Shown here: positions 18,554 to 35,840 of the stretch, in pieces | Position numbering within the stretch: the first letter of the stretch is position 1 | Layout of the letters: each line of letters opens with the position of its first letter | Source: Opitutaceae bacterium | Lineage (GTDB): Bacteria; Verrucomicrobiota; Verrucomicrobiia; Opitutales; Opitutaceae | DNA: 64,000 nucleotides | Assembly (NCBI GenBank): GCA_027482185.1 | Contig: JAIXWF010000013.1 | Location: 1,426,001-1,490,000, forward strand | Direction: 5' to 3' | The notes under the pieces: model-generated | Seen by the model: only the letters and a program-made list of their open reading frames with translations | Database searches by the model: none | What the model was told of the DNA's origin: nothing | Made by a program: the position numbers and the translations under genes

Positions 18554-20911
18554 TCATTGGAGGAGGTTCTGGCCGCGATTCTCCGCCTGCCGGATCGTCA
18601 CGGGCCAACCGGGAAACTGGTTGGACGCCTTGCCGTCGGTCGCATCGATCAGAAAGCGGTACGATTCGACGGTGTAGGTTTTCGCGGCGGGATCGAAGAC
18701 CACGAAGCCGAAGCCGCTGCCTTTTTCGTGCGCGCGCTCGTAGCGGTTCGGCGCCTTGCCGACGACGGGATTTCCCACCGCGTAGACGTAGACCTTGTTG
18801 CCGAAGGCATCGATGTACTCGCCGGTGTCGGCCAGCCCGTGCTTCGGACGGTTCGCATGCGGGAACTTCATGTCGTCCGGGCGCCACCAGCGCGGATAGC
18901 CGGCGGCGATCGCGGGCGTGCAGAAGGACCACATGCTGTCCCGCTGTTGCGCGACCCCGTATTGCACGAGGGTCGCCAGGTGCTGGTCGCCGTTGATGTG
19001 CAGCGCCATCGCGGGGCGCAGGAGGTCGATCGCGCGATTCCGCGGGGTCTGCGGCCAAGCTCCCGAATCGAGATCGGCCTTCAGGTAACCGTCGTAGCTG
19101 CCGTGGTGCGTGGCGACCGCGGCGAAGACCGTCTGGCTGAGCACGGCTTTGAGAGTGTGCCCGCGCCAGTCCTGCGCCCATTTTTTCAGAAACTCCTCCT
19201 GCCGCTCGCCGAGCAGGACCAGGCCCGGGACGTCGAGCTTGGTGCAGTCGAAGTTCGGATCGACGACGTGGTCGCGGCGCGGGCCGCCGGTCTGCACGCG
19301 CTCGGGGCCGCTCTTCCATTGGCGGTCGGCAAGGATGGCGAAGCCGACGCCGCCGTAGACCATGTCGCCGTAGTACACGCTGATGTCCTGCTTCGACGGC
19401 GTCGGGTCGTGCGGATCGGGATGGTGCGCGACGTTGGTGCGGTGGACGGCATTCACCATCCGGGCGGGCTCGATGTATCCGCCCTTCGATGACGCGCCGG
19501 GATCTTCCGCGGTGATCGACATCTTGGCCCCGCCTTCGCCCCAGATGTTGCCCTGGAAAACGTCGTGGTCGTCGGGCAGGCACAGGGTGGGCGCGTGCCG
19601 CATCACGTCGCGGAACGCCCAGCCGAATTGATAGAACTTGCGCAGGTAGTTGAGGATCGCGGGCTCCGCCGGTTCGCGGATGATGCCGAAGCCGCCGTGG
19701 CTCTCGTAGATTTGGTCGCCGGAGAAGAAGACCAGATCGGGTTTCAGTTTCGCGACGTTGCGGGCGACGGGTTCGTAGGGGAATCCGTAGTCGTTCTGGC
19801 AAGTCAGCGCCGCCATCCGCAGCGGCCGGCCGGCAGGGTTGGCGAGAATCGTGCCGGTCCACTCGGAAGGCGTCACGGTGCCGTCGCGGTGTTTTTCGCG
19901 GTAGACGAGTTTGTAGGGCGTCGCGCGCTTTTCGTCCCAGCGCGGAATGCGGAACGTCGCGACCCAGGCGTCGGGATCGAGCTTGGCCTCGCCCAGCGAC
20001 TGCCAGCCGCCGTTCCGCTGCACGTGCAATTCCACAACCTGGCTGTCGGCGCGGCCCATCGGGCCCGTCAGCGCGCTCATCTTCATCACGAAGCCTTCCG
20101 CGGTGCGCGAATCGCTGAGGGAATACATCGACCAGAGGAGCGGACCGAAGCGCCGGGCGGGATCGACCGTGAAAGCGTCGCCGGAAATCTGCCAGGCCGT
20201 GAACCGGTGGCGCGAGCCGCCAGCCGCGGTCGTGGCTTTGGCGGCCTTCTTGGCGTTGCCGGGGGCGCCGGCCGCGGCGTACCCGCTTACGAGGGCGACA
20301 TTGCCGAGCAGGGACGCCGCCGGCACCGTATGGCTCAATTGCCCGAGACTGGCGCCGCCGGCGGCCGCGCGCGCCTCCAGCGTGAGAACGACCTCGTCGC
20401 CGCGGCCGACCCCGGTGAGAAGGAGCGCGATTTGCTTCGGATCGGCGCCGGCCGCGAGCGGGCCGGTTTTCGGGCCGAGCACCAGATTCCCGTCCGCCAC
20501 GCCGGCGTTGAGGCCCTGCTGGACGAAGCAATTGCTGCGATACTCGTTGAGCTCGCTGCGCACTCCGAGGCGGAAACCGCCGCCGTTGTCTTTGCCGCGC
20601 ACCTCGAGTTGCGCGAGTTGCACCGACATCGAGAAGCCCTTCGCCGGGTGCGCGAGTTGGTGCGTGAGCGAGTGGATGCTGCGGTTGCCGCCGAGGCTGC
20701 GGCATTCGGCGCCGCCGTCGGCGATGCGCCAATCCTCCATCGGGTTGGCCCAGAAATCGCCGCCGAGAAAGACGCGGTCGTGGGTTTTGCTCCAGGCATC
20801 GGCGGCCGGCGCGGGGGCCGCGGCGGCGGACTTGGTCGCGGCGCCGGCGCCGACGACGGTGGCGGTAGCGAGCAGTTTAAGGGCGGTGCGGCGGGGGATG
20901 AGGTGATCCAT
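18554..20911 (-). CDS. PhoD-like alkaline phosphatase / phosphodiesterase, Tat-exported
   Basis: Exported metallophosphoesterase of 785 residues. The N terminus carries a twin-arginine signal (R7-R8-T-A-L-K-L-L) and an Ala-rich cleavage region. Residues about 40-380 form beta-rich N-terminal domains. The PhoD-like catalytic part follows with '[13 protein letters not shown]', '[12 protein letters not shown]' and a late '[17 protein letters not shown]' metal-binding segment. PhoD enzymes hydrolyse phosphomono- and diesters using Ca and Fe in the periplasm or outside the cell. At 785 residues it is longer than classical PhoD (about 550-600). It is the last gene of the long sulfatase/TonB locus, 52 bases after the receptor stop, so it may strip phosphate from the same substrate. 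Confidence 0.85.
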
Positions 20912-20963
20912 GGGGAAGATTCAGGGTGCGAGCATGCGGCGGGGAGATCGGCCAAGCCAATTT

Positions 20964-23900
20964 CTACAAATCAACCTCGCAGGCCAAAATGAATTGGCGG
21001 GCCACCATGCGCATCGTGGTGAGGGAGTTGCCGTTGAAGAAATCGCGGTTGCGGGAAACGTAGCGGTCCTGCGGGAAGGCGTTGCGGATGTTGAGGTCCA
21101 CGCTGTAGCGGCGGTCGCCGAGCCAGGCGGATTTTCCGCTGTAGCCGAAGGACAGGTCGATCGCGGTTTCGGCCTTTCCTTTCTGGATGATGTTCACGTC
21201 CGGCACGCTGACGCCGTTGACCTGTTTAACGCCGAAGCCGAGCGACGCCGGCGCGCGCCAACGATAACCGCCGCCCGCCCGGAAGCCGCGCAGCGGTCCC
21301 TCGCTGAACCGATACATCGCGTTGAAATTCCAACGGTGGTCGCGGGTGAACTCGTTCGGCCGGCCGTTGTAGGCTTCGAGGACCGGGATGCCGGAGTTGC
21401 CGTTGCGCACATTCGAGATCCAGCTCTCCTTCATCGTCTGCTGGGCCCAGCCGCCCGCGACCTTGTCGTTGTTGCGGCCCCACGGGGTCAGATTGCTGCC
21501 GAGGTTCTGGGGCACGACGTTGCCGGAGCCGGTGCCGACCGGGATGGAATCCCACGTGTATTGCCGGATGACGCCGTCGCCATCCATGTCGAAACCGGCT
21601 GGATTGCGGTAGATCGCCTCGGTGTCGCCCGGCACGTAGCCTTCGGTGAAAAAGGTCCGGTCCATGATCGCCTCGAACTGATCGGCGAACTTGGTCCATT
21701 GGGTGGCGATGCCGCTCTGCGTGACCTGCTGGTGATTCCACGTGAAGCGAACATCCAGATTGCGGGTCGGCTTCCACTGCAGGGTGATTTCTTTGCCGGC
21801 GGCGGCCGTGTCGGCGGTCACGGCGTAGGGGTCGAGGTAGTTGAAGAAGTTCATCGTCTCGAAGCCGCCGTTGTTCACCGACGCGAAGGGATAGGCGAAT
21901 TGGGGATCGCCCTGGTCCTGCAGCGGCCACGCGGGAAACTTGGCGCGGAATTCCGCCTGGTTGGCCACCAGGGCCCGCGTGATGTCCTTCATCACCGGCC
22001 GCATGGCCCCTCTGATCCCGGCGAACAGCGCCCCCAGCCGGCTCGGGGAGGAGTTCACTTCGTACTCGTTGTACCGGACGTTGAATTTTCCCTCGAACAG
22101 CCCGAGACGAAAACCTTGGTCGAAGCCATCGCCCCGTTCGCTGGCCATGAAGCTGCCGTCGGGGTTGCGCGAGGTGGTGTTGGGCGCGAACGTGTTCGAC
22201 TTCGTGTACATGAACGACAGGTCCGCCCCGAGCGGAAGTTTCCAGCCCCAGTGGCGGAACGGATGCACGACGATGCCCTTCAGTTCGGTGGTGCCGGAGG
22301 CCTTGGTCGCCGGATCCATGGGGTCGAAGCCGTAGTAATCGAGATGGGCCTGATAGCCGGCCGACTGGGCCGACACGATCTGGCCCGTTTCCGGATTGCG
22401 CCAGGCCACGGCGGGGGCGGCCGAGCGGGCGGTGTTGTTGGAATCTTCGCGGCGGCCGTAGGTGAGCACGACGCGGTCCTGCAGCAGGAAGCCCTGGTAC
22501 GAGAGAAGTTTGGTATCGAATTCCGAATGGGTTCCCCCGGTGTTCCGGCCCGTGATGAGCCGCTCGCCGTTGGTGCCCGTGCCGGCGTTCGCCGGATCGA
22601 CGATCCAGACCTCGCCGTTGTTGTCGGTGATCCTCCAGGGTTGGCCGATCTCGAAGCCGTCGGTGCGGGGCGCCCAGCCGAAATCCGCGCCGACGTAGGA
22701 GCGGAAATTGACGGCGCGGTTGCTGGCCGCGGCGCTGTAGCCGCTGCCCAACGGGCCGAGTCCCCGCCGGCCGGTCGCGGGATCGACGGTGTAGTTGACC
22801 CCGCTGAAAACGGGATCCCGCATGCGGCCGTTTTCGATCACCGGCTGGAGGTTGTAGCGGTATTCCTGGTTGAGGTTTTTCGATTCGAGAGCCGAGACGA
22901 TGCCCGCCACCCGATGCCGCCCGAGCAACCGCACCCAGCGGTTCTGGAAATGATCCTTGGTGTCGAATTCATACGAGAGCGCGGCGCGCCATTCGTCGCT
23001 CTTGTTCCAACCTTGGCTGTAGCCGGCGAGGCCGTCGAAATACAGCCGGCCCGCGTAGGGATTCGGCGTGACGCCGTCGGGCAGAAAACGGTTCGCGTCG
23101 ACGTTGAGATTCAAACCGCCGTTGCCGCCGAACATATATTGCCCGTTGCGGTTTTTCCCGGCCTCCCGCTGGTAGCCCGCTTCGAGATGCAGGTGGCGGA
23201 AGATCTCCTGGTTGAAAAACAGATTGGTGATCGAGGATTCGCCCGCCGCGAAATCGGTGTGGTAGTGGTAGCTTGTATCCCGGGGATAATATTTGTCGTC
23301 CAGGAGCGAGACTCCCCGCGTGGTGCCGGCGTTGACCGGATCGACGACCCCAGGCCAAAGGCCGTTGTCGGCGATGTTCTGCACGCCCACAGAATAGAAG
23401 CTGCCCGAGGCGCGCACGCCGGCGGGATTGTTGCCGCCGATCACGCTGATGGCGCCGTCGCCCGAGGTGCTGAAAACCCGGTTGTCGGGATTGGTGCGGG
23501 TGGCCTGCCAGGCGAGGCTGTTGTTGAAAAGCGGTTGGTTGCCCAGCGCCGAACCCAGGTCGCCCGCCTGATACCAGACGCGGACCCGGTCGAGCGGCGC
23601 CACGCGCGACGGCATGCGGTTGTGGTTTTCGATCTTCTCGAAGTGGGCGCTGAACGAGGTTTTCCTGAAAGGGGAAAACAGCAGGGCGCCGTACAGCCGG
23701 CGGTCCCGCTCGAGGGACGGCTTGATGTCCGCCTTTTTGTTTTCCGCGAGCAAGGCGCCGCGGAACGCGAGTTTGCCCGGCAGCAGCGTGCGATTGAAGT
23801 GAAACTCCCCGCGCAGCCCGCCGAAGCTGTCGACCTGCATTCTGGTTTTGGCGGTGTTCCGATTCATGATCGGCCGGGCCAGCGTCGCGTCGATCGCCCC

Positions 23901-24419
23901 CGTGGGCGCGCCGATGCCGAACATCATGGGATTCGGTCCGGAGGCGAGGGTGACGCGCTCCAGGTTGTAGTTGTCCGCCCGCGTCCCGGTGGCGAAGAAC
24001 TCGCGCGAACGCCGGGCGTCGCCGATGCCGCGCACGCGCAGATTGCCTTGGCCGGAGTCCTTCGACTCCACGTTGGCGACATATTCGGAGCCGTTCTCGA
24101 TATTGAGCGAGTAGATCGAAGCGTCCTCGACGCTGTTGAACCCGAACTCGTGCATGAAATCCAACGTGAACACGTCCATCTGCGAGGCCACGTCGGCGAG
24201 TTTGGTCCGCATGCGGGTGCCGGCCAGGGTTTCGGCCGGCGTCCAGCCGGTATTGTCGCCGGCCTGCACTTGAAACGGGGCGAGCACGACAAGTTCGCCG
24301 GATTTTTGTCCGGCGGCTTCGTCTTTGGGCGGCGGGACCGTGGTCTGGGCCGAGGTGCCGGGGCTGAAAGCGAGCCAGCCGGCAAGCGCGGCGACGAGGG
24401 GGTGGGGTTTGAGGGGCAT
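20964..24419 (-). CDS. TonB-dependent receptor (large)
   Basis: Outer-membrane TonB-dependent receptor of 1151 residues from the ATG at 24417-24419. The frame is open upstream, but those residues do not resemble a signal sequence. The signal peptide ends near residue 24 (GTSAQ). The segment LVVLAPFQV (43-51) parallels the LSPF segment of the other two receptors. The plug includes a variant of the 'SGPNPMMFGIG' motif and the barrel ends with 'ILACEVDL'. It is larger than the other receptors, with long glycine- and asparagine-rich extracellular-loop-like stretches. It lies downstream of two sulfatase genes and upstream of the PhoD-like phosphatase on the same strand, implying import of the desulfated or still sulfated product. 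Confidence 0.9.
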   Translation of the reverse strand: MPLKPHPLVAALAGWLAFSPGTSAQTTVPPPKDEAAGQKSGELVVLAPFQVQAGDNTGWTPAETLAGTRMRTKLADVASQMDVFTLDFMHEFGFNSVEDASIYSLNIENGSEYVANVESKDSGQGNLRVRGIGDARRSREFFATGTRADNYNLERVTLASGPNPMMFGIGAPTGAIDATLARPIMNRNTAKTRMQVDSFGGLRGEFHFNRTLLPGKLAFRGALLAENKKADIKPSLERDRRLYGALLFSPFRKTSFSAHFEKIENHNRMPSRVAPLDRVRVWYQAGDLGSALGNQPLFNNSLAWQATRTNPDNRVFSTSGDGAISVIGGNNPAGVRASGSFYSVGVQNIADNGLWPGVVDPVNAGTTRGVSLLDDKYYPRDTSYHYHTDFAAGESSITNLFFNQEIFRHLHLEAGYQREAGKNRNGQYMFGGNGGLNLNVDANRFLPDGVTPNPYAGRLYFDGLAGYSQGWNKSDEWRAALSYEFDTKDHFQNRWVRLLGRHRVAGIVSALESKNLNQEYRYNLQPVIENGRMRDPVFSGVNYTVDPATGRRGLGPLGSGYSAAASNRAVNFRSYVGADFGWAPRTDGFEIGQPWRITDNNGEVWIVDPANAGTGTNGERLITGRNTGGTHSEFDTKLLSYQGFLLQDRVVLTYGRREDSNNTARSAAPAVAWRNPETGQIVSAQSAGYQAHLDYYGFDPMDPATKASGTTELKGIVVHPFRHWGWKLPLGADLSFMYTKSNTFAPNTTSRNPDGSFMASERGDGFDQGFRLGLFEGKFNVRYNEYEVNSSPSRLGALFAGIRGAMRPVMKDITRALVANQAEFRAKFPAWPLQDQGDPQFAYPFASVNNGGFETMNFFNYLDPYAVTADTAAAGKEITLQWKPTRNLDVRFTWNHQQVTQSGIATQWTKFADQFEAIMDRTFFTEGYVPGDTEAIYRNPAGFDMDGDGVIRQYTWDSIPVGTGSGNVVPQNLGSNLTPWGRNNDKVAGGWAQQTMKESWISNVRNGNSGIPVLEAYNGRPNEFTRDHRWNFNAMYRFSEGPLRGFRAGGGYRWRAPASLGFGVKQVNGVSVPDVNIIQKGKAETAIDLSFGYSGKSAWLGDRRYSVDLNIRNAFPQDRYVSRNRDFFNGNSLTTMRMVARQFILACEVDL

Positions 24420-24510
24420 TACGGGGTGGGGTGTGGGGAAAGGAAACGACGGCCGCAGGACTCCGAACGAAGTCCGGCGAGCGGCCGCCAACGCGCGGGG
24501 GCGCCGCGCG

Positions 24511-26094
24511 CTATCTCAGATTTGCGGCGGCCCGCGCGGGCCGGATCGTCGGGTCGGGTTTCCCGGCGAGTTCCTGTTTTTCCGCTTTGCCGCCTTGGTT
24601 GTGCGGCACATCGGGGGCGAACGCGGCGGGAAAGGACGCGGCCAGCCGCGCCTTTTGGCGCACGGCTTCCGGCGCGGTCGAGGCGGCGAGATTGGTCCAC
24701 TGCAGCGGATCGGCGGCCATGTCGTAGAATTCCTCGGTGCCGTCCCGGTAGCGAATAAAGTACCAGCGCTCGTCGCGCACGGCGGCGCTGCCGCGGCCGT
24801 CGATCGTGATGGAGACGTGCGGCCACGCCTGCTGCGGATTGCGCAACAACGGCACGAGGCTGCGGCCGTCGATCCCGGGTTTGGCGGGCAGGCCGCAGGC
24901 TTCGATCAACGTGGGATAGAGATCCATCAGATTGACGACGCGCGGGCAGTCCTGCTGGGCCTGCATGCCAGGCATCCGAATAATGAGGGGCAGGCGGGTC
25001 GACTCTGCCCAAAGCGCGGCTTTGCGGAAACGCAGTTTCTCCCCGAGGTGCCAGCCGTGGTCGCCCCAGATGACGACGATGGTGTTGTCGCGGGCCGGGC
25101 TTTTTTCGAGCGCGGCAAGCACGTGCCCGATGCAATCGTCGGCGTAGCTGATCGCCGCGAGGTAGGCCTGCACGGCGGACTTGTGCAGGCGGGGGTCCTG
25201 CCGGACCCAATTGAAGTCGGCCGACGGCTTGTTCTTCACGCGTCCCTGCGGGTCGACGATGTCGTCCAGATCATCGAGCCGGAATTCCGGCAGCTCGATC
25301 GACTCCAGCGGATGGCGGTCGAAATTCTCCTGCGGCACATACCAGGGCAGGTGCGGTTTGGAGATGCCGAGCGCCATGAAGAAAGGTTTGCCCGGGGTTT
25401 TCGCCAAGTGGGCGGCGGCCCACTCGGCGGCTTTCCAGTCCTTGGATTCTTCCTTCGGTCCGCGGGTGGGGCCCCAGGCGAATTCCGTGCCGTCGGCGTC
25501 GCCTTCCTTCATACCCTCGCGCTTCACCTCGGGCCGCGGGATGGGTTTGCCGTTCCACAAATTCTGCCGGCGCGAAGTGAGGCGTGCGGGATCCGGGCGC
25601 GAACCGGCGCCGCCCGCGGCATCTTCCCATTGGTCGAAGGCCCAGTGGCCCTCGTCGCCCGGATGTTTGTGGAAAATCTTGCCGTTCGAAAGCGTGTGGT
25701 AGCCGTGCTTCGAAAAATACTCCGGCAGCGTCAGGTGGGTCTGGATCAATTCGGAACCGCGCATGTTCTGGCTGTTGCCGTAGACGCCGCTCCGGTGCGG
25801 CATGAAGCCCGAGAGCAGGGCCGAACGCGACGGTCCGCACACCGGACCGGCGCAATGGGCCTGTTGGAAAACGACGGAGCCGCGCTGCGCGAAGCGGTCG
25901 AGGTTGGGTGTCGCCGATTTTTTCTGCGGGGCGCCGCCGAAGGGGCCCACCCAGTCGTTCAAGTCGTCGACGGCGATGAAGAGGACGTTGTAGGGAACCG
26001 GCGGTTTTTCGGCGGCGCGAAGTTGGCCGAAGGCGAGGCCAAGCGCGGCGAAAGCGACGGCGCGGAGAGCAAAGAGCGTGGGGTAGGGAGTCAT
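24511..26094 (-). CDS. Sulfatase, iduronate-2-sulfatase-like
   Basis: Secreted sulfatase of 527 residues. The start was set at the ATG 26092-26094, just after the upstream sulfatase stop, which gives a clear signal peptide (residues 1-28). The metal-binding 'AVDDLNDW' (D43, D44) and the formylglycine signature C86-G-P-S-R90 are present. 'NGKIFHKH' replaces the usual GKWHLG, and 'VIWGDHGWHLGEK' lies in the C-terminal half. These features resemble iduronate-2-sulfatase-type enzymes acting on uronic-acid-containing glycans. The gene follows the other sulfatase by 5 bases and precedes the large TonB receptor by 91 bases. A fragment of a close relative is found at 12794-12880. The substrate is inferred by class only. 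Confidence 0.9.
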   Translation of the reverse strand: MTPYPTLFALRAVAFAALGLAFGQLRAAEKPPVPYNVLFIAVDDLNDWVGPFGGAPQKKSATPNLDRFAQRGSVVFQQAHCAGPVCGPSRSALLSGFMPHRSGVYGNSQNMRGSELIQTHLTLPEYFSKHGYHTLSNGKIFHKHPGDEGHWAFDQWEDAAGGAGSRPDPARLTSRRQNLWNGKPIPRPEVKREGMKEGDADGTEFAWGPTRGPKEESKDWKAAEWAAAHLAKTPGKPFFMALGISKPHLPWYVPQENFDRHPLESIELPEFRLDDLDDIVDPQGRVKNKPSADFNWVRQDPRLHKSAVQAYLAAISYADDCIGHVLAALEKSPARDNTIVVIWGDHGWHLGEKLRFRKAALWAESTRLPLIIRMPGMQAQQDCPRVVNLMDLYPTLIEACGLPAKPGIDGRSLVPLLRNPQQAWPHVSITIDGRGSAAVRDERWYFIRYRDGTEEFYDMAADPLQWTNLAASTAPEAVRQKARLAASFPAAFAPDVPHNQGGKAEKQELAGKPDPTIRPARAAANLR

Positions 26095-26099
26095 GGGGT

Positions 26100-27527
26100 T
26101 CAGGGCTGCGAATTCTTTTCCGGGCCGGTGCGGTTGATGAGACCGCCGAAAGGATTGTTGCCGAAGGTCGGGGCGATGAGGCCGCGGTTCCATTCGGCGG
26201 CGGCGGCGGCGAGGCGCGCCGCGACTTCGGGACGGGACGCGGCGAGGTCGCGGGTTTCGCCGAGGTCTTGCGACAAATCGTAGAGCTGCGGCGCGTTTTG
26301 GTAGGTGCGCAGCCACTTCCAATTGCCCTCCCGCACCGCGAACGCCTCGCCGGCGTCCATGCGCCAATACAGCCGCGGGTGCGGGGCGGCGGGATTCTTG
26401 CCGGTGAGAAACGGCAGGAGATCGACGCCGTCGAGCGCGGCGAGCCCGGCGTCGCGTTTGCCCCCGGCGGCGGCGAGGGCGGTCGGGAAGATATCGAGCG
26501 AAATGACCGGCTGGGAATAGGTGCGGCCGGCGGGAATGCGGGTGGGCCAGGCCACGACGAACGGGACGCGGATGCCGCCTTCGAACACATCGCCTTTCTG
26601 GCCGCGCAGCGGGTTGTTCACCGACGCGTTGGCGTTGCGCTTGGTCATCGGTCCGCCGTTGTCGGAAATGAAGAAAATCAACGTGCGCTCGCGTTGGCCG
26701 GCGGCGTCGAGGGCATCGAGGATGCGGCCGACGGCCTCGTCCACCGTGGCGACCATCGCGGCGTAGGTGCGGCGGCGTTCGTCGGCGATCGCGGCGAAGC
26801 GCGCGAGTTGGTCGGCGCGGGCCTGCAGCGGGGTGTGCGGCGCATTGAAGGAAACGTAGAGGAACCAGGGTTGCGGAGTGCGGGCGTAGCGGCCGACGGC
26901 GGCGACGGCCTCTTCGCCGAGCCGCGTGGTGAGCTCCCCGACTTCGGGTTCTGCGGCGGAGTTGCGCAGCAGGGGCGAGGTGTGTTCGGCGTCGCCGGTG
27001 CTCGCCGCTTTCTTGCCCGCGCCGACTTCGACCTCGACGATCGAGTTCGGGAAGTAGCGATGGCCGCCGCCGAGAAAGCCGAAGAAATCATCGAAGCCGC
27101 GGCGATTGGGATGGAAGTGCGGGTGCGAGCCGAGGTGCCATTTGCCGATGGCTCCGGTCCGATAGCCGGCGGAGCGGAGCGCGTCGCCGAGCGTAACCTC
27201 GGAGAGCGGCAGGCCGTGGGTGGCGGCGGTGGCGTCCCACTTGGGATTGTACTCGTAGCCGAACCGTTGCTGGTAGCGGCCCGTCATGAAGCCGGCGCGG
27301 GAAGGACTGCAAACCGGGTAGGAAACGTAGCCGTCGGAGCAACGGACGCCGGAGGCGGCAAGACGGTCGAGGTGGGGCGTGGGAATGTCGCGTCCGCCCT
27401 GAAAGCCGACGTCGTTGTAGCCGAGATCATCGACGACGAGCAGAAGTACGTTGGGCCGCGGCTCGGCGGCGCGAGTCGCCGCCAAACCGAGCAGAGCCAT
27501 CAGCAGGATCGAATAGAAGCAGCGCAT
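26100..27527 (-). CDS. Sulfatase, arylsulfatase-like
   Basis: Secreted type I sulfatase of 475 residues, near the usual family length. The signal peptide (1-21) is followed by 'LVVDDLGYNDVG' (D33, D34), the signature C73-S-P-S-R77 inside 'SYPVCSPSRAGFMTGRYQQR', 'GKWHLGSHP', and 'FFISDNGGPM'. The local sequence around the active site closely parallels the partial sulfatase at 1-1057, so the two are paralogues of the same subfamily. Here it is paired with a different-type sulfatase immediately downstream, which suggests removal of sulfate from two positions of one glycan. The upstream gap of 145 bases to the DUF1592 gene holds no obvious terminator. Confidence 0.9.
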   Translation of the reverse strand: MRCFYSILLMALLGLAATRAAEPRPNVLLLVVDDLGYNDVGFQGGRDIPTPHLDRLAASGVRCSDGYVSYPVCSPSRAGFMTGRYQQRFGYEYNPKWDATAATHGLPLSEVTLGDALRSAGYRTGAIGKWHLGSHPHFHPNRRGFDDFFGFLGGGHRYFPNSIVEVEVGAGKKAASTGDAEHTSPLLRNSAAEPEVGELTTRLGEEAVAAVGRYARTPQPWFLYVSFNAPHTPLQARADQLARFAAIADERRRTYAAMVATVDEAVGRILDALDAAGQRERTLIFFISDNGGPMTKRNANASVNNPLRGQKGDVFEGGIRVPFVVAWPTRIPAGRTYSQPVISLDIFPTALAAAGGKRDAGLAALDGVDLLPFLTGKNPAAPHPRLYWRMDAGEAFAVREGNWKWLRTYQNAPQLYDLSQDLGETRDLAASRPEVAARLAAAAAEWNRGLIAPTFGNNPFGGLINRTGPEKNSQP

Positions 27528-27672
27528 GGGGTATTTGTGGGGAAGGGGCTACGGGGCGCGGAGCAGGGGGAAATCGGGAAAGGAAAATCAACGGAGCCGG
27601 CCCGAACGGGAAAAACGGTCGGCGCCCGGCGCCCGTCCGGCGGCGGGGGCAAGAAGAGGTTGGAACGAAGAC

Positions 27673-30180
27673 TCAGGGGCGGAGGAACAGTTCGCTGGTC
27701 ACCACGGCTTCGATCAGCGAACGCAGGCCGGGTTCGCGCGACGGAAAGGCGGCGAGGATCTTTTCCACGCCGGGATCGTCGAGCACACCGATGCGCCGGC
27801 CGCACGCATAGGTGAGGAGGCGGTCCGTGAGCATGCGGGCGAAGATGTCGCGGCGCTTGACCAAGACCTGCTTCAGGCCGGTCACGTCGGAGAACTTTTC
27901 GCCGCCCGGCAATTCACCGGCGGCATCGATGGGCTTTTTCCCGTAGCTCGTCCGCCACGCCCCGACAGGGTCGAAGTTTTCGAGCGCGAATCCGAGCGGG
28001 TCGATCTTCTGGTGGCAGCCGTAGCAATTCGGCGATTCGCGATGTTTGCTGACCAATTCGCGGATGGACTTGGCACCGCGCACATCGGGATCGATGGCCG
28101 GCACATCGTCGGGCGGCGGCGGCGGCGGCGTGCCGAGGATGTTTTCCAGGAGAAAGACGCCGCGCACGACGGGCGAGGTCTCGATGCCGTTGGCCGAGAC
28201 GGTCAGCACGGAGCCCATGCCCAGCAGGCCGCCGCGGCGGGCATCGGGGAATTCGACCCGGCGGAACTCGTGCGCGCGGGCGGGATCGCCGAGATCGCCG
28301 ACGCCGTAGTGCGTCGCGAGCGGCTGGTTGAGGAAGCTGTAATTGGCGTCGAGAAAGCCGACGATGCTGGCATCGCGGGCGATGAGATCGCGCATGAAGA
28401 GCCGGGTCTCCGTTTTGAACGCCTGCTCCAGGCCCTTGTAGTAATACGGCTCGAAGTCCCTCCGGTCGGGCGGCATCGAGCCGAGATTCCGGAGGTTCAG
28501 CCAACTGTCCAAGAACCCCGAGACCAAGGCTTCGGCGCGCGGGCTGGCGAGCATCCGGCGCGTCTGCACGACGAGGACCTCCGGCCGTGCCAGTTCGCCG
28601 TTGGCCGCAAGCCGGAGCAATTCGGCGTCCGGCATGGTCGACCAGAGGAAATAGGAAAGCCGCGAGGCCAGCGCAAAACCGTTGAGCGGCGGCCGGGCCT
28701 TCGGATCGTCGCCGGCGGGCATGGTGTCCTGCGCGAGATAGAGAAACGACGGGGAACTGAGCGCGGCCTTGAGCGCGTCCTTCAGGCCTTCGAGCGGCGA
28801 ACGGCCTGTGCCCATGCGTTTTGCCGCCACGCCCACGAGACGATCCACTTCCTCGTCCGTGGCCGGGCGGCGATAGGCGCGATCCGCGAAAGCGCGCAGG
28901 ACTTCGCGCAGGTTTTCCGGAGCGAACGGTTTTCCGCCCAGCACCGCCTGCTGGCTTGCGGGCGGCCATTGCCCGACGAGCGGCCCCCGGATTTTGACCT
29001 CGTGGATGCGGATGTGCGGCAGCTTCCCCTCGACGACGCTGATGATGCGGTTCTCGACGATGCCGAGCCCGTTCCTGCGGTCCCGGTTGCGTTCGCTGTT
29101 CGCCTCCTTCGGCCACTTGTCCTTGTGGTACTCGATGATCTTCGCCCACGAATTGCGGGCGCTTTTCGAGCCGTTGGGGAACACAAAGCGCGGCGTTTGG
29201 CCGGCATCCAGCCACACGCGGACCGTCCGCCAAACGGGTTCGCCGTCGTCCAGGACGAGCTCGGCGAGCATGGGCTGGAGCGGTTGCGGCTGATACAGCG
29301 CGCCGGCTTTCGCATCGCCGGGCACGAGCCCGAGCCGGAAAGGCTCGCGCGCATCGGTACCGAAGATCCTCGGATCGTATGGGTGCTGCCGATTCATCGC
29401 CTGCACCAGCACCTGGATCTCATAGTAGCCGTCGACCGGCACCCCGGCCTCGAAGGCGCTGATGAAACCGTAGCCGCCTTCGTGGTGCGGCGTATCCATG
29501 CATTCGTACAGGCCGATGAAGCGGTTGTTGAGGCGCCGGTGGGCGTTGCTCATTTCGGGCTGCGTCTTGAAGTCGCCGCGGAAATGCCACGTGCGCTCCG
29601 CCGGCCGATCCTGCAGCGCAAAGGCTTTTTCGACGACGACGTCCGCCGCTTCCAGGTACTGCTCCAGCAGATAGCCCGAGGTCCGCAGGACGTCGCCGAG
29701 GTTGTCCATGTGTTCCTCGGCCTGGTCGCGGGGGAAATTCGTGGTCGGATCGAAGGCCGCCATGTTCAGGGCGAAGAGATCGCCGACGGTATTGAGATAT
29801 TCGCGACGGTTCAGGCGGCGCAGCACCGTGCGGCCGCCCGTGCTCGCGAGGCTCTCGCGACCCTCGGACAGCGCCTGCGCCAATTGCTCAAGGATCGCTT
29901 TCTGTTCCGCCGATTTGGGCTGCTTGGCCTCGGCGGGCGGCATGTCGCCGAGATGGAGCTGGTCCATCATGTCCTTCAGGTCGAGCAGCGTGTCCTCCTT
30001 CGTCGCCGGCAGCAGCAGCGTGTCGAAACGCCGGTCGGCCTTCTGTTTTTCGGGCCCGTGGCACTCGATGCAGTAGGCGGCGACGAAACGCTTGATCGCC
30101 GCCGGGTCGGCCGCGGCCTGGAGCGGGGAGGAGAGCGCCGCGAGAAGCAGAACCGCCGGATGCAACAAATAGCGAAGCAT
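27673..30180 (-). CDS. DUF1592-type protein with two CxxCH haem-binding motifs
   Basis: Exported 835-residue protein of the Planctomycetes/Verrucomicrobia 'PSCyt' type. A signal peptide (1-23) leads into a cytochrome-c-like segment with C37-I-E-C-H41. DUF1587-, DUF1592-, DUF1588- and DUF1585-like segments follow, with 'RRLNRREYLNTVGDLF' marking DUF1587 and 'IDPLGFALENFDP' the DUF1588 region. A second CxxCH (C-Y-G-C-H, near residue 720) sits in that region, so two haems c are possible. The function of the family is not established; a redox role at the cell envelope is a guess. It is encoded 35 bases after the DUF1552 gene, its near-universal partner. I start at the ATG 30178-30180, since the open frame upstream overlaps that partner. 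Confidence 0.87.
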   Translation of the reverse strand: MLRYLLHPAVLLLAALSSPLQAAADPAAIKRFVAAYCIECHGPEKQKADRRFDTLLLPATKEDTLLDLKDMMDQLHLGDMPPAEAKQPKSAEQKAILEQLAQALSEGRESLASTGGRTVLRRLNRREYLNTVGDLFALNMAAFDPTTNFPRDQAEEHMDNLGDVLRTSGYLLEQYLEAADVVVEKAFALQDRPAERTWHFRGDFKTQPEMSNAHRRLNNRFIGLYECMDTPHHEGGYGFISAFEAGVPVDGYYEIQVLVQAMNRQHPYDPRIFGTDAREPFRLGLVPGDAKAGALYQPQPLQPMLAELVLDDGEPVWRTVRVWLDAGQTPRFVFPNGSKSARNSWAKIIEYHKDKWPKEANSERNRDRRNGLGIVENRIISVVEGKLPHIRIHEVKIRGPLVGQWPPASQQAVLGGKPFAPENLREVLRAFADRAYRRPATDEEVDRLVGVAAKRMGTGRSPLEGLKDALKAALSSPSFLYLAQDTMPAGDDPKARPPLNGFALASRLSYFLWSTMPDAELLRLAANGELARPEVLVVQTRRMLASPRAEALVSGFLDSWLNLRNLGSMPPDRRDFEPYYYKGLEQAFKTETRLFMRDLIARDASIVGFLDANYSFLNQPLATHYGVGDLGDPARAHEFRRVEFPDARRGGLLGMGSVLTVSANGIETSPVVRGVFLLENILGTPPPPPPDDVPAIDPDVRGAKSIRELVSKHRESPNCYGCHQKIDPLGFALENFDPVGAWRTSYGKKPIDAAGELPGGEKFSDVTGLKQVLVKRRDIFARMLTDRLLTYACGRRIGVLDDPGVEKILAAFPSREPGLRSLIEAVVTSELFLRP

Positions 30181-30215
30181 GGACCAAATAGGGGAGGCGG
30201 TGACTTGCCGCGGGC

Positions 30216-31532
30216 TCAAGCGAGGCCGGTCAAGGTGCCGGTGCCGGTGCCGAATTTCCCGACCTCGACGCCGAAGCGCTGGAGCATCGACACGTAGAGA
30301 TTGCAGAGGGGCTGGCGACCGAGCCCTTTCTCCGGATAGACCTTGTGTTCGCCGTGTTTGAAGCCGCCGCCGGCGAGGATGATCGGAAGGTTGCCGTTCG
30401 TGTGGGCGTTGGCGTTGCCCATGCCGCTGCCGAAGAGCACCATCGTGTGTTCGAGCAACGTGCCGGTGCCGTCCCGGATGGAACCGAGCTTGGCGAGGAA
30501 GCGCGCGAATTGCTCGACCTGGTAGCGCTCCATCTTGATCAGGGCGGCGATGGCCTCGGGCCGTTGGCCGTGGTGGGAGAACGCGTGGTAGCCGCCGTTG
30601 AGGCCGAAGGCATTCGCCTCGAAGTCGCCGCCGATCTCGAAGGTCGCGATGCGGGTCGAGTCCGTCTGCAGGGCGAGCGCGATCAGGTCGTACATCACCG
30701 GCAGGTCGGAAACGAAACCCTTGTTCGCGGGCTCCGGCATTTTCGGGTCGGGCTTCGGCACGTGCGCCCATTGGCGGCGAAGTTCGATCTGCTTTTCGAC
30801 GTCGCGGACCGAGGCGAAGTATTCGTCGAGCTTTTCCTTGTCGCGCTGGCCGAGTTGGCGCCCGAGGGATTTCGCCTCGCCTTGCACCGCGTCGAGGATG
30901 GAACTCTTCATTTCGAGCCGATCCAGCGAGGCGGCGACGTGCGTCGCACCTTCCGAGACAAAGAGTTTCCGGAACAGTTCACGCGGCGTGGCGATCGGCG
31001 GCACGCGCGTGCCGCTGCGCGTCCAGGACATGAGGCAGCCGCCATGGATCCCGCTCTCGGAGCCGAGGGCGAGGGAAGGGAAACGCGTCGCGCCGCCCAT
31101 CGTTTCCGCGGCGCGTTGATCCAAGGTGAGATTGCCTTCGGGCATTCCCTTCGCGTCGGCCGTGCGCACGCCGCTCAGGAAGGAGCTGATGGCAAAGTGC
31201 CCGCCCTTCACGCCGTGATCGAGGCCGGTGAAGATCGAGAAATCCTTCCGGTGGGGCGCGAGGGATTCGAGATCGGTGGGCAATTCGTAATTCGGTCCTG
31301 CGGCGGTGGGGAAAAACGCCGGCGGGTGGAAACCGAGCATGTTGCCGACACAGACCATGCGTTTCGGCCGAGTTGCTCCCGCGGCTTTTCCCGGGAGGGT
31401 GCCGACGGCCGAGCCTTGGGCGAAGACGCGTCCGCCGAGCGACTCCAGCAGGGGCAAGGCGAGGCTGATGCCGGCGGCGCGGAGGAAGTGGCGCCGGGTG
31501 GAAACGGCGGACGGGAGAGGGGCGGCGGACAT
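30216..31532 (-). CDS. DUF1552 protein, Tat-exported
   Basis: 438-residue exported protein of the DUF1552 family. The twin-arginine signal 'TRRHFLRAAG' (R13, R14) is followed by a hydrophobic segment and an alanine cleavage region (VFAQG). Conserved stretches include 'RMVCVGNMLGFHPPAFFP', 'GLDHGVKGGH', 'LFGSGMGNANAHTNGNLP' and 'ILAGGGFKHG', reminiscent of alkaline-phosphatase-fold enzymes such as DUF1501 proteins. No activity has been established to my knowledge. The pair DUF1592 plus DUF1552 is common in Planctomycetes and Verrucomicrobia. Here it stands between the sigma/anti-sigma genes and the sulfatases, which links it to the same regulon. The start at 31532 gives the proper Tat signal; upstream codons are not signal-like. 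Confidence 0.87.
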   Translation of the reverse strand: MSAAPLPSAVSTRRHFLRAAGISLALPLLESLGGRVFAQGSAVGTLPGKAAGATRPKRMVCVGNMLGFHPPAFFPTAAGPNYELPTDLESLAPHRKDFSIFTGLDHGVKGGHFAISSFLSGVRTADAKGMPEGNLTLDQRAAETMGGATRFPSLALGSESGIHGGCLMSWTRSGTRVPPIATPRELFRKLFVSEGATHVAASLDRLEMKSSILDAVQGEAKSLGRQLGQRDKEKLDEYFASVRDVEKQIELRRQWAHVPKPDPKMPEPANKGFVSDLPVMYDLIALALQTDSTRIATFEIGGDFEANAFGLNGGYHAFSHHGQRPEAIAALIKMERYQVEQFARFLAKLGSIRDGTGTLLEHTMVLFGSGMGNANAHTNGNLPIILAGGGFKHGEHKVYPEKGLGRQPLCNLYVSMLQRFGVEVGKFGTGTGTLTGLA

Positions 31533-31599
31533 CGGAAGGCGGGGGGCTGCGATTCGGGGCGGGAAAGGAGGAAGCCGGGTGTGGAACCGCCCGGATGGG

Positions 31600-32553
31600 T
31601 TACGGGATGAGGACAGAAACCCGCACATCGTCCAAGTAGTGCGGCGATGCTTCCGCCGACGCGTCGTCCGGGGGCTCCGCGCCGAGGATGAACACCAGGC
31701 TTCGCGCTCCGCGGGGCAAGGGCATCTTCAGCGAGAACGTGTGCCAACCGCCCGCACCGGGCGCCGTGTCGAAACGCTGCGCCACCGACACCACGCCGTC
31801 GTCCTGGGTCTTCGGCCAGAAGCCCCGCGTGGCCTGTTCGGGCGTCTCGCTGAGCGCGAAGGCGCGAATCAGGTAGCGCGAGGCCGCGCCGGCGTTCGCC
31901 GCGTGGAACGAGGCCGTCACTTGCACCTCGGCGGTTTCCGCCGAGGCGGGCGGCGGCAGCGATCCGAGATCCAGGACCTGATACACGCGGGAGGCGTAGT
32001 TCCTCACGTTCTTGTCCCGCGGGATCGGCTCCAGGCGCAGCATCCGGCGGCCTTGCAGCGGTTGCACGCCGTGCTCGGCCGTCACCCATCTGGCCGAATC
32101 CGCGCCCCATTGCCCGACCGACTTGGGCACTCCCCGGGCCGCGATCGATTCCGCGTTTTCCAGCCCGGGATCGTAAACCGGCAGCGGCAGTTTCTTTGCG
32201 ACCGTCGCGCGCTGCGCGACCAAGCCGTAAACCACGGAGGTGCAAAACATGCCTAGTACGATCCCCGCTGCGGCGGCCGTGAGCGGTCGCCACGCCAGCC
32301 AGCGCGCCGGGCGCGCTGCGGTCATCGTCGCCTGGGCCGGCGCGGAATCCAGCAACGAGACGATGCCGTCGTCCCGCAGCCGGTCGAGCAGCGCCTGCTC
32401 GTCCACCATCAGGCGCGCCATCGCGGCGCGGGCGGCGGGTTCGCGGCGCAGCAGTTCGTTGAGGGCGGTGCGCGCCGCGGCGTCGTGCGCATCGCGCGCG
32501 GCCTGCAGCAAGGCGAGCAGCCGGCCTTCGAGCGTGGCGGGATCAGGGTTCAT
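31600..32553 (-). CDS. Putative anti-sigma factor with membrane anchor and C-terminal beta-sandwich-like domain
   Basis: 317-residue protein. The N-terminal part (1-75) is helical and cytoplasmic, in the position and style of FecR-like anti-sigma domains. A transmembrane helix follows at about 88-110 ('AAGIVLGMFCTSVVYGLV'). The external part (about 115-317) looks like a jelly-roll domain, ending in 'YLDDVRVSVLI', a C-terminal pattern typical of carbohydrate-binding or LamG-like modules. The ATG overlaps the TGA of the ECF sigma gene by four bases, so it is its natural partner. I infer a sensor that holds the sigma factor until its outer domain meets a ligand. The domain calls are from pattern only and the family is not named with certainty. 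Confidence 0.7.
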   Translation of the reverse strand: MNPDPATLEGRLLALLQAARDAHDAAARTALNELLRREPAARAAMARLMVDEQALLDRLRDDGIVSLLDSAPAQATMTAARPARWLAWRPLTAAAAGIVLGMFCTSVVYGLVAQRATVAKKLPLPVYDPGLENAESIAARGVPKSVGQWGADSARWVTAEHGVQPLQGRRMLRLEPIPRDKNVRNYASRVYQVLDLGSLPPPASAETAEVQVTASFHAANAGAASRYLIRAFALSETPEQATRGFWPKTQDDGVVSVAQRFDTAPGAGGWHTFSLKMPLPRGARSLVFILGAEPPDDASAEASPHYLDDVRVSVLIP

Positions 32554-33074
32554 GGCGCGAGGCGGAGTTGCCGTTGAATGCAGACGCTCAGCTGCTCGCG
32601 CAGCCGCAGTAGAGTCATTTTCACCGCGCTTTCGCTGCGGCCGGTGAGGCCGGACAATTCGCGCACCGCGCGGCCGGCCAGATAGTGCTCGCGGAGCAGG
32701 TCCGCCTGCTCCGGTTTCAGTTTCTTGAGACAGGTATCCAGCGCTTCGCGGCGATGCTCGAACTGTGCGGCGGCGGTCTCGGTCTCCTCCGTCATCGCGA
32801 GCACCACGTCTTCGTCGAAGACCAGCCGGTCGCGCATCCGGTCGCGGAGATGCGACAGGACGGTGAACCGCGCCACGGCGAAGGCCCAGGGCAGAAACTC
32901 GGTTGCCGGGTCCCATTCGCCGGATTTCTCCCACAGCTTCACGCACGTCGCCTGCAGGGCCTCGCGGGCGTCCTGCCGCTGCGCCAATTGCGCGTGGCAG
33001 AACGCCTCCAGCGCCGGTTGGTGGCGGGTCAGCGCAGCGATGAATCGCGCGGGGTCGCGGGCGTCGGGGGACAT
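32550..33074 (-). CDS. ECF RNA polymerase sigma factor (Rhodopirellula/Verrucomicrobium type)
   Basis: Small group IV (ECF) sigma factor of 174 residues. Region 2 spans about 10-90 ('DAREALQATCVKLWEKSG', 'FLPWAFAVARFTVLSHLRD') and region 4 about 115-170, with the helix-turn-helix 'GRSESAVKMTLLRLREQL'. This corresponds to the ECF type abundant in Rhodopirellula and Verrucomicrobium. The start ATG at 33072-33074 was chosen because upstream residues are low-complexity and outside the family. The gene heads the minus-strand locus of anti-sigma, DUF1552, DUF1592, sulfatase, TonB receptor and PhoD genes, so it probably controls it. ECF genes often autoregulate, but I cannot identify its promoter motif here. 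Confidence 0.88.
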   Translation of the reverse strand: MSPDARDPARFIAALTRHQPALEAFCHAQLAQRQDAREALQATCVKLWEKSGEWDPATEFLPWAFAVARFTVLSHLRDRMRDRLVFDEDVVLAMTEETETAAAQFEHRREALDTCLKKLKPEQADLLREHYLAGRAVRELSGLTGRSESAVKMTLLRLREQLSVCIQRQLRLAP

Positions 33075-33334
33075 GGGGACAACGATAATTCCGGTCGCGG
33101 CACCCGCGGTCACATTAATTTGGCAAGACGTCGGCCGCTGGATGCAAAGGCAACAAGCTCTCGCCCGGATCGCTCCGGTTGGGCGGCCGGTGGCTTTGCG
33201 GCGGCCTTGGCCACGGCGAACGGAATGCGATCCGGGACCAGCCGCCCAAGGTGGGCGGACTGGCCGGGCGGCGGCGGTGAACCCTCGGTTCGCGGTCGAC
33301 GCGAGATCGTTGCGACCGGCCCGGGATGCATGTA

Positions 33335-33690: not shown

Positions 33691-33905
33691 CGCTTGTCCG
33701 GTGTGGGGTGGCATCGGGTCGGTCTGCGAGCGGGGCGCGGGAGCCGCGGCAAGGGGGTGGCGGGCGAGGGGGGCGGCCGGCGGGGCGGCGGGACGCTCCC
33801 GCCGGGTACCATAGCATCCAGGTGCCTGAACGGGGCCAAGAATAACCCCATTTTCCTGAGAAATTGCGTCGCGCCGCGGCATTCCCCGGCCGAGGCTCGG
33901 AAACG

Positions 33906-35090
33906 ATGCCGGCGCCGCGCAAGGTCGCACTCCTGATCGAAACCTCCAACAGCTATGCCCGCGAATTGCTGCAGGGGGTGCGCGCCTGGGTCCGTGAGAA
34001 CGGAGGGTGGACCATCCGCCTCACCGAACAGGGCCGCGGGGCCGCCGTCCCCGACTGGTTGCAATCGGGCTGGGATGGGCACGGCGTGATCGCGCGGGTG
34101 GAGAGTGCCGCCATCGCCCGCCGGCTACTCGCCACCGGCCTGCCGGTCATCGACGTGAGCGCGGCCCTGCCCACGCTGGTTTTCCCCCGGGTCGCCACCG
34201 CGGCCGCCGGCGTGGCGGAATTGGCCGCCGACCATCTGGCGCGGCGCGGTCTGCGCTCTTTTGCGTATTGCGGCGACCGGCGTTTCCACTGGGCGCGCCG
34301 GCGCGGGGAAGCGTTTGCCGTCGCGGCGCGCGCGCGGGGAGGGAGCTGCGCCCTGTTCGCTCCGGCACCGGGCACCGTCGACGAGGAAATCGAGACGATT
34401 GCCCGGTGGTTGGCGGGGCTGCCGCGACCGGTCGGGGTGTTCGCCTGTCTCGACCGCCGCGGACAGCAGATTCTGGCCGCTTGCCGCCAGGCCGGGCTCG
34501 ACGTTCCGGGCGAGATTTCGGTCATCGGCGTCCACAACGACGAGTTGCTCTGCGAACTTTGCGATCCGCCGCTCTCGAGCGTGATTCCCAACGCGCGCCG
34601 TGCGGGGCACGCGGCGGCGGCTTTGCTCGCGCGAGCCATGCGGGGGCGCCGCGTGCCCGTGGAACTGCACGAGATCGCACCGGTGGGAGTGGCCGCCCGC
34701 CAATCCACCGATCTTGGCGCCATCGGCGACCCACGGATCGCACAGGTGCTGCGCGTCATGCAGGAACGCGCGGCATCCGGGATCAACGTGGCCGACGTCC
34801 TTCGTACCGTCCCGATGGCCCGCACCGCGCTCGAACGGCGATTCAAATCGCTGCTCGGGACCAGTCCGCACGCGCACTTGCGCTGTTTGCGGATGGAGCG
34901 CGTCCGCGAATTGCTCGTCCGCACCAGCCTGCCCGTCGGCGAAATCGCGGCCGCGACCGGTTTCGAGCACGCGGAATACCTGAGTGCGATGTTTCGCCGC
35001 GAGTGCGGTCTGACGCCGCGTGAATACCGGGCCCAGCACGCGACGGGCGGTGAGGCGACGCCCGGATCCGACGCGCGACGATCGGCCTGA
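33906..35090 (+). CDS. XylR-like transcriptional regulator (LacI-type sensor, AraC-type HTH)
   Basis: Cytoplasmic DNA-binding regulator of 394 residues from the ATG at 33906. Residues 1-280 form a periplasmic-binding-protein/LacI-like ligand domain, with 'KVALLIETSNSYARELLQGV' at the start and 'ISVIGVHNDELLCELCDPPL' matching the LacI-family hinge region. Residues about 295-385 carry two AraC-type helix-turn-helix motifs ('ALERRFKSLLGTSPHAHLR', 'VGEIAAATGFEHAEYLSAMF'). This architecture is that of XylR, which senses a sugar and activates transport and catabolic genes. It is divergent from the ECF-headed sulfatase locus, so control of that locus in response to a monosaccharide product is a reasonable inference. 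The specific sugar is unknown. Confidence 0.88.
   Translation: MPAPRKVALLIETSNSYARELLQGVRAWVRENGGWTIRLTEQGRGAAVPDWLQSGWDGHGVIARVESAAIARRLLATGLPVIDVSAALPTLVFPRVATAAAGVAELAADHLARRGLRSFAYCGDRRFHWARRRGEAFAVAARARGGSCALFAPAPGTVDEEIETIARWLAGLPRPVGVFACLDRRGQQILAACRQAGLDVPGEISVIGVHNDELLCELCDPPLSSVIPNARRAGHAAAALLARAMRGRRVPVELHEIAPVGVAARQSTDLGAIGDPRIAQVLRVMQERAASGINVADVLRTVPMARTALERRFKSLLGTSPHAHLRCLRMERVRELLVRTSLPVGEIAAATGFEHAEYLSAMFRRECGLTPREYRAQHATGGEATPGSDARRSA

Positions 35091-35840
<750 letters not shown>

Follow-up and report, generated by a model that had tools for sequence, protein, structure and literature searches.

What does an extracytoplasmic function (ECF) sigma factor control when its gene, with that of a membrane sensor, stands ahead of a row of sulfatase genes, and what might the sensor respond to? 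The locus in question lies in a 64,000-nucleotide stretch of DNA, here called the window, from an Opitutaceae bacterium (GenBank assembly GCA_027482185.1, contig JAIXWF010000013.1, positions 1,426,001 to 1,490,000 of the forward strand). Eight genes in the same orientation run along its minus strand from 33074 down to 18554. We consider it reasonably probable that they form a one-operon, autoregulated glycan switch, in which an ECF sigma factor and a membrane sensor with a predicted jelly roll resembling a carbohydrate-binding module (CBM) precede genes for a sulfated glycan. This reading is based on gene content, promoter conservation, the outer-domain fold, the tracking of sigma by the sensor N-terminal domain (N-domain), the exchange of outer domains and the recurrence of such pairs near carbohydrate genes; from these we infer the glycan ligand, sigma binding, cleavage, co-transcription and the substrate. 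The features, from promoter to last gene, are:

33086..33114, minus strand: putative ECF autoregulatory promoter TGTGACC-N15-GGAATTA, 11 bases 5′ of the sigma ATG
32550..33074, minus strand: ECF sigma factor, TIGR02989 (Rhodopirellula/Verrucomicrobium family), profile score above cut-off
31600..32553, minus strand: single-pass membrane sensor and putative anti-sigma factor of 317 amino acids, 4-base overlap with the sigma gene
32302..32553, minus strand: N-terminal helical domain of the sensor (residues 1-84), putatively binding sigma, whose identity it tracks
32218..32301, minus strand: membrane-helix region of the sensor (residues 85-112), in which an AA(x)G and GxxxG pattern is conserved
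31603..32202, minus strand: outer domain of the sensor (residues 118-317), modeled as a CBM-type jelly roll
30216..31532, minus strand: protein of the DUF1552 (HXXSHH) family that bears a twin-arginine signal and models with an alkaline-phosphatase-superfamily fold
27673..30180, minus strand: PSCyt1-PSD3-PSD5-PSD4(DUF1592)-PSCyt3-PSD2 protein, from Pfam domains, with two CxxCH motifs
26100..27527, minus strand: sulfatase 1, formylglycine (FGly) motif CSPSR, closest solved relatives carrageenan sulfatases
24511..26094, minus strand: sulfatase 2, FGly motif CGPSR, from PF00884 and the motif
20964..24419, minus strand: probable TonB-dependent receptor, weak family evidence
18554..20911, minus strand: PhoD-like phosphatase (PF09423) with twin-arginine signal

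Reading frames and family matches bear out the order and span that a preliminary description of this DNA gave for the eight genes. Its gene identities are borne out as well; the TonB receptor is a weaker call, with no Pfam match at E ≤ 0.01. The intergenic spacings calculated from the coordinates, sigma to PhoD, are −4, 67, 35, 145, 5, 91 and 52 bases, and the layout is compatible with a single operon.

The sigma factor and its sensor

The sigma factor belongs to TIGR02989 (135 bits, curated cut-off 124.55) and carries the Pfam domains Sigma70_r2 and r4_2. For its partner, neither Pfam nor NCBIfam gave a match at E ≤ 0.01, and the FecR domain PF04773 was not matched either. Across 22 sensors, Pfam at E ≤ 1 listed seven families and no useful match; RskA_N (E = 0.046) and zf-HC2 (E = 0.27) were weak matches in one sensor each. 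PADLOC returned nothing for the sigma factor, the sensor, the DUF1552 protein or the PSCyt/DUF1592 protein. The AlphaFold2 model of the sensor contains three N-terminal helices spanning residues 8-68 (8-21, 25-37 and 39-68), a membrane-type helix at residues 90-116, modeled with low confidence, and a β-sandwich at residues 122-316. This agrees with the architecture first proposed, namely cytoplasmic helices, one membrane helix and an outer β-sandwich-like domain. Homologues of M50 proteases are encoded in the genome of the window.

Structure comparison models the outer domain as a galactose-binding-like jelly roll of the carbohydrate-binding type, the kind of fold on which the preliminary description had made its idea of glycan sensing depend. 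A Pfam search matched the domain to no named CBM family, its best CBM sequence match is weak (E = 0.013 to a CBM22 chain), and meprin MAM domains and HpiC1-type cyclases fit the model as well as several CBMs do. Conserved sensor residues E132 and D308 may resemble a structural calcium site of CBM jelly rolls. The domain is predicted to be a sugar-binding-type module.

To compare the parts of the sensor with sigma, the N-domain, the membrane helix and the outer domain of 50 aligned sensors were treated separately, and the pairwise identities of each part were set against those of the sigma factors. The correlation set comprised 51 rows, of which one was too long and 46 were usable, giving 39 non-redundant sigma-sensor pairs; the FecR-type relatives L131, L132 and L137-L139, which score too low for the sensor profile, lie outside it. 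Identity in the N-domain follows sigma (rho = 0.51, permutation p = 0.001), and does so more closely than identity in the outer domain (rho = 0.16, p = 0.03; n = 39 pairs for both). When seed loci are left out (22 pairs, the window among them), the respective values are 0.60 and 0.39, and the membrane helix gives 0.67, compared with 0.41 overall. Since its identity tracks that of sigma, the N-domain is taken as the putative sigma-binding part. An earlier correlation over 25 non-redundant pairs (0.63 for the N-domain and −0.09 for the outer domain), for which the helix was located by its pattern and 16 pattern-less plus four short or sigma-less rows were dropped, is superseded by the 39-pair set.

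Individual loci display the exchange of outer domains. L022-L028 share 68-80% identity with the window in sigma, 47-65% in the N-domain and 20-25% in the outer domain. L131 and L132 are 61% and 60% identical to it in sigma and 60% and 61% in the N-domain, and place FecR and LamG domains where the window sensor has its jelly roll. L005-L007 have an outer domain 44% identical to that of the window, yet their sigma factors are only 29-30% identical and their N-domains gave no match. FecR is found in the sensor relatives L130-L132 and L137-L139, and the outer part in relatives consists of FecR with LamG or CBM96, which are lectin-like modules too. The protein at L130:9515-11713 has FecR, then a distant copy (19% identity) of the jelly-roll domain, then further sequence, and is a possible intermediate between FecR and FecR-less sensors.

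Helix conservation in L019-L036 is biased, because GIVLGMFC served as a search seed, and the helix figures are therefore limited to the 22 non-redundant rows, the window's own among them, that remain once seed loci are removed. Membrane-helix identity in these rows is 0.44, against 0.24 in shuffles; GxxxG is found in 21 of the 22 helices (5.2 expected from shuffles) and AA(x)G in 19 (4.8 expected). The membrane helices are more alike than composition explains.

Putative promoter, gene neighborhoods and probable transfer

A common ECF promoter had been suggested as something to look for, and a conserved element of this type is present 5′ of the sigma gene. TGTGACC-N15-GGAATTA stands upstream of the sigma gene in the window, and the element lies 9-11 bases 5′ of the sigma ATG in all 11 genomes found with this sigma type (at least 68% sigma identity). 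Ten of them have no mismatch to TGTGACC-N15-GGAATWW and one has a single mismatch; the remaining upstream DNA, judged by eye, differs among these genomes. The two FecR-LamG loci (sigma 60-61%) carry the element only in degenerate form, unmatched at one mismatch. With the −10 element so near the ATG, a leaderless transcript is implied.

The 6.4-Mb genome of the window contains one perfect site, that before the sigma gene, and a wider regulon was not found there (four more sites at up to two mismatches, versus two for the reversed pattern). Scanning 13 genomes gave 38 sites at up to one mismatch, versus seven for the reversed pattern. Eleven are perfect, and ten of these stand before the sigma gene. 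The remaining one, elsewhere in the genome of G474, is 94 bases before a DUF1552 gene that is followed by a PSCyt3/DUF1592 gene, so this sigma factor probably controls the pair in trans in that organism. Position does not discriminate between sites: 22 of the 24 non-sigma one-mismatch sites examined fall in an open frame of at least 200 residues on one strand, as do 7 of the 11 sigma-gene sites. Scans for terminators (22 sites, 15.7 in shuffles) and sigma-70 promoters (0 sites) were uninformative. On contig C61 of G474 (L173), a one-mismatch site stands 40 bases before a secreted-looking protein, by eye a parallel β-helix enzyme in appearance, whose gene is cut by the contig end. Also by eye, the sigma genes of L117, L118, L119, L121, L111, L115 and L116, which are of other subtypes, seem to have an upstream element of their own close to GGTAA[AC]-N15..17-[AG]CATAC, and each sigma subtype may therefore have its particular promoter.

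The order sigma, sensor, DUF1552, DUF1592, sulfatase repeats in three loci (L020, L021 and L019, which is the same as L108) at 63-93% protein identity, and this recurrence indicates that the arrangement is more than chance. Conservation of gene order, which the preliminary description had put up for comparison, is thus seen in relatives, if in few of them. L019 continues after DUF1592 with sulfatase 2, the TonB receptor and PhoD; L020 and L021 have sulfatases 1 and 2, with PhoD upstream. In L020 (3968-5311) the DUF1552 gene occupies two adjacent frames, representing a decayed gene or an assembly error.

At further loci, a sigma factor of this type or a related one heads other gene sets: PSCyt2/PSD1, DUF1501, an unnamed gene and a family 28 glycoside hydrolase (GH28) in L023; a family 8 polysaccharide lyase (PL8) and a GH2/alginate-lyase protein in L026; GH32 with a DUF1552-DUF1592 pair in L027; DUF1552-DUF1592 in L025; and a giant protein with an α-L-fucosidase in L131 and L132. 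L028 is too short for its downstream content to be judged. The giant frames exceed 2700 amino acids, are cut at the locus end and also contain autotransporter-type PATR repeats. In 27 non-seed sensor rows, DUF1552 lies within 6 kb downstream in 6, DUF1592 in 8, a sulfatase in 8 and a TonB receptor in 9; the set contains redundant rows and rows truncated at contig ends, and excludes one longer row. For DUF1552, copy numbers of 2 to 62 per genome (17 genomes) give an estimated chance expectation of 0.1-3.5%. The genome of the window has a sensor at only one of its seven DUF1552 loci, and one other (L104) has a sigma match nearby. A second sigma-sensor pair in this genome (G000:C3:759000-778000, L107) heads a TonB receptor and three sulfatase-profile matches. 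Sensors are uncommon: sampling detected them in 6 of 120 genomes within the family and in 16 of 387 across the phylum, the latter a possible undercount with at most five candidates scored per genome.

The cassette also appears to have moved. RpoB of the window's genome (G000) is 96% identical to that of G026 and only 69% identical to those of G471 and G472, the home genomes of L020 and L021; G478 gave no RpoB and is outside this comparison. Between the window and L020/L021, identity is 80% for sigma, 82-85% for sulfatase 1, 70% for DUF1592, 74% for sulfatase 2, 63-66% for the sensor and 81-84% for DUF1552 (in L020 over 73% of the gene, with the second piece at 66%). As RpoB normally ranks with the best-conserved proteins, transfer of the cassette between lineages is likely. 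A tRNA-Ser (GCT) gene at 35749-35840 (minus strand) of the window, about 2.7 kb from the sigma gene, is a possible insertion landmark.

Proposed mode of action and competing explanations

RsgI outer domains are interchangeable and of carbohydrate type, with a repertoire of CBM and PA14 domains. Passages of PMC12203970 describe the RsgI/SigI systems of Clostridium thermocellum as membrane anti-sigma factors with several paralogues for different substrates and an alanine-containing membrane helix with XAA motifs, features shared by the system described here; RseP cuts inside this helix, and ClpXP recognises the XAA sites there. The same passages call RsgI helix conservation low, unlike the helices here, which are well above shuffles. 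Further differences are that the sigma partner is a TIGR02989 ECF factor rather than of SigI type, that the window sensor has no RsgI-type N-terminal Pfam domain (nor is one among the seven families for the 22 sensors at E ≤ 1), and that the target looks like the sigma factor's own operon. The analogy with RsgI drawn earlier is thus useful for a possible mode of working and fails for membership. Partners of the FecR/LamG type (L131, L132, L137 and L138) also adjoin a sigma factor matched by the same profile; the window sensor differs in lacking FecR and LamG and in having a CBM-type jelly roll that follows the membrane helix directly. Class I anti-sigma factors (ASDI), as covered in parts of PMC7406223, likewise have an N-terminal helical domain, adjoin an ECF sigma gene and show an N-domain that coevolves with the cognate sigma, as in the 39 pairs above. 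The window sensor, in contrast, has no profile match, and where ASDI sensory domains are, in those parts, typically well conserved within one group, the outer domains here differ within one sigma type.

On our best reading, the switch works like RsgI/SigI but is built from different families, shuffled between operons and probably between lineages. The sensor would sit in the inner membrane, with its N-terminal helical domain holding the ECF sigma factor. The CBM-like jelly roll would meet a glycan, most likely sulfated, or a fragment that the TonB receptor has imported, and binding would expose the sensor to proteolysis; its membrane helix, rich in alanine and other small residues, could plausibly be cut by a site-2 protease. 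Freed sigma would then transcribe from TGTGACC-N15-GGAATTA just 5′ of its own gene, and sigma, sensor, sulfatases, DUF1552, the cytochrome-type DUF1592 protein, receptor and PhoD would rise together. We put forward only tentatively a wider proposal, that Verrucomicrobiota evolved, apart from RsgI, a horizontally exchanged, plug-and-play form of glycan sensing, with a constant sigma, leaderless autopromoter and GxxxG/XAA helix combined with interchangeable lectin-like ectodomains and enzyme operons. Here it might drive a desulfating-oxidative route of sulfatases, alkaline-phosphatase-fold DUF1552 and a dihaem-type DUF1592 protein, the last perhaps attacking the sugar backbone where a glycoside hydrolase would otherwise do so.

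Several observations weigh against the glycan switch and its spread. The first three downstream proteins of L024 belong to no family found. Among 29 proteins picked around these and other loci, 9 have no Pfam family at E ≤ 1e-5 and single cases are of TIM-barrel, leucine-rich-repeat, lactonase and FAD-oxidoreductase types; seven are glycoside hydrolases or lyases. Mis-binning in metagenome assemblies could mimic transfer, a concern countered by two metagenome-assembled genomes from different samples that carry the cassette at 91.5% DNA identity.

An anti-sigma sensor whose jelly roll binds a protein or senses the state of the envelope, with the sulfatases reflecting the general richness of Verrucomicrobiota in such genes, is an unlikely explanation. 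The MAM and HpiC1-type resemblances would suit it, as would the family-less first genes headed by some sensor relatives (L112, L114, L024 and L027) and, from passages of Wecker et al. (PMC2754498), the induction of Rhodopirellula baltica ECF factors, including RB10049, by heat, cold and salt. The lectin-like outer parts of relatives, and PL8, GH28, GH29 and GH32 among the genes near related loci, favor a carbohydrate signal instead. FecR/FecA-type signaling, with the TonB receptor signaling to the sensor through an outer domain that serves as a protein contact, is the least probable of the alternatives. FecR does occur in the six relatives listed above, and the 9 of 27 rows with a TonB receptor nearby fit as well; the window sensor has no FecR match, however, the receptor's match to a solved receptor starts near residue 52, which would leave little room for an N-terminal signaling domain, and the stretches examined in L020 and L021 contain no TonB match.

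Control could also come from a divergent XylR-like AraC regulator (33864-35090, plus strand), with the sigma-sensor pair minor or independent. This protein combines a periplasmic-binding-protein-like domain with an AraC helix-turn-helix, and its gene points away from sigma; in the FecR-LamG relative L132, an AraC-type match lies some 6 kb upstream of the sigma gene. No homologue was found before the cassette in L108, L020 or L021, for which about 3.4, 2.4 and 1.4 kb could be inspected, whereas all three retain the ECF promoter, and we regard this arrangement as distinctly improbable.

If the glycan switch is correct, the glycan bound by the outer domain should point to the substrate of the PSCyt/PSD enzymes, and the promoter marks genes that would be co-regulated. 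The swapping of outer domains within a single sigma type would also illustrate how a sensor can be re-targeted with its output unchanged, and the parts could serve as glycan-responsive switches. In passages of He et al. 2017 (PMC5615132), the abundant PSCyt/PSD genes of lake Verrucomicrobia are said to be wholly uncharacterized in function; related switches with other outer parts and enzyme sets offer a testable handle on such enzymes.

The downstream enzymes

The DUF1552 protein matches PF07586 above cut-off (278 bits), has a visible twin-arginine motif (TRRHFL) and models with an alkaline-phosphatase-superfamily fold. Its neighbor matches PSCyt1, PSD3, PSD5, PSD4, PSCyt3 and PSD2 above their cut-offs; adjacent PF07586 and PF07631/PF07627 genes constitute a DUF1552-DUF1592 (PSCyt3) pair. 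The two CxxCH motifs reported for the DUF1592 protein are there, as CIECH and CYGCH. The preliminary description took the link to a haem-type DUF1592 protein and a Tat-exported phosphatase as a sign of more than a standard utilization locus. According to passages of He et al. 2017 (PMC5615132), PSCyt genes near sulfatases had already been described in freshwater Verrucomicrobia, so the proximity of these two is nothing unusual by itself. Those neighborhoods, like this one, have a PSCyt3-type gene beside a second unknown family with sulfatases nearby; the word "sigma," by contrast, occurs 0 times in the main text of that paper. An ECF factor, RB10049, is suggested as regulator of a PSD1/PSCyt2 gene in passages of Wecker et al. 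(PMC2754498). From these parts of the two papers, the enzyme families, PSCyt-sulfatase proximity and a suggested ECF regulator for a PSCyt gene are prior knowledge; the sensor type, its promoter and its modular exchange were not found in the literature searched.

Both sulfatases match PF00884 above cut-off and contain a C-x-P-S-R maturation motif (CSPSR and CGPSR), which places them among the S1 sulfatases. Against solved structures, sulfatase 1 aligns over most of its length with seven carrageenan-sulfatase chains at 345-358 bits, the next match scoring 252 bits. It shares with the carrageenan sulfatases (S1_19) this long alignment and the FGly motif; the operon, however, has no carrageenase. 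Among these matches, S1_19 membership is stated for 9hh2/9hh3 only; we take 6prm, 6bia and 6b0j to be members too, and 6hhm is presumably an ulvan sulfatase.

The SusC/SusD pair of a Bacteroidota-type polysaccharide utilization locus is absent: Pfam gave no SusD-family match for any of the operon's eight proteins. The receptor has a partial Protein Data Bank match to the enantio-pyochelin receptor (E = 4e-7), and a match to FhuA lies below cut-off. PhoD matches PF09423 above cut-off, and the twin-arginine signal ascribed to it is visible as RRTALKLL, which would direct its export.

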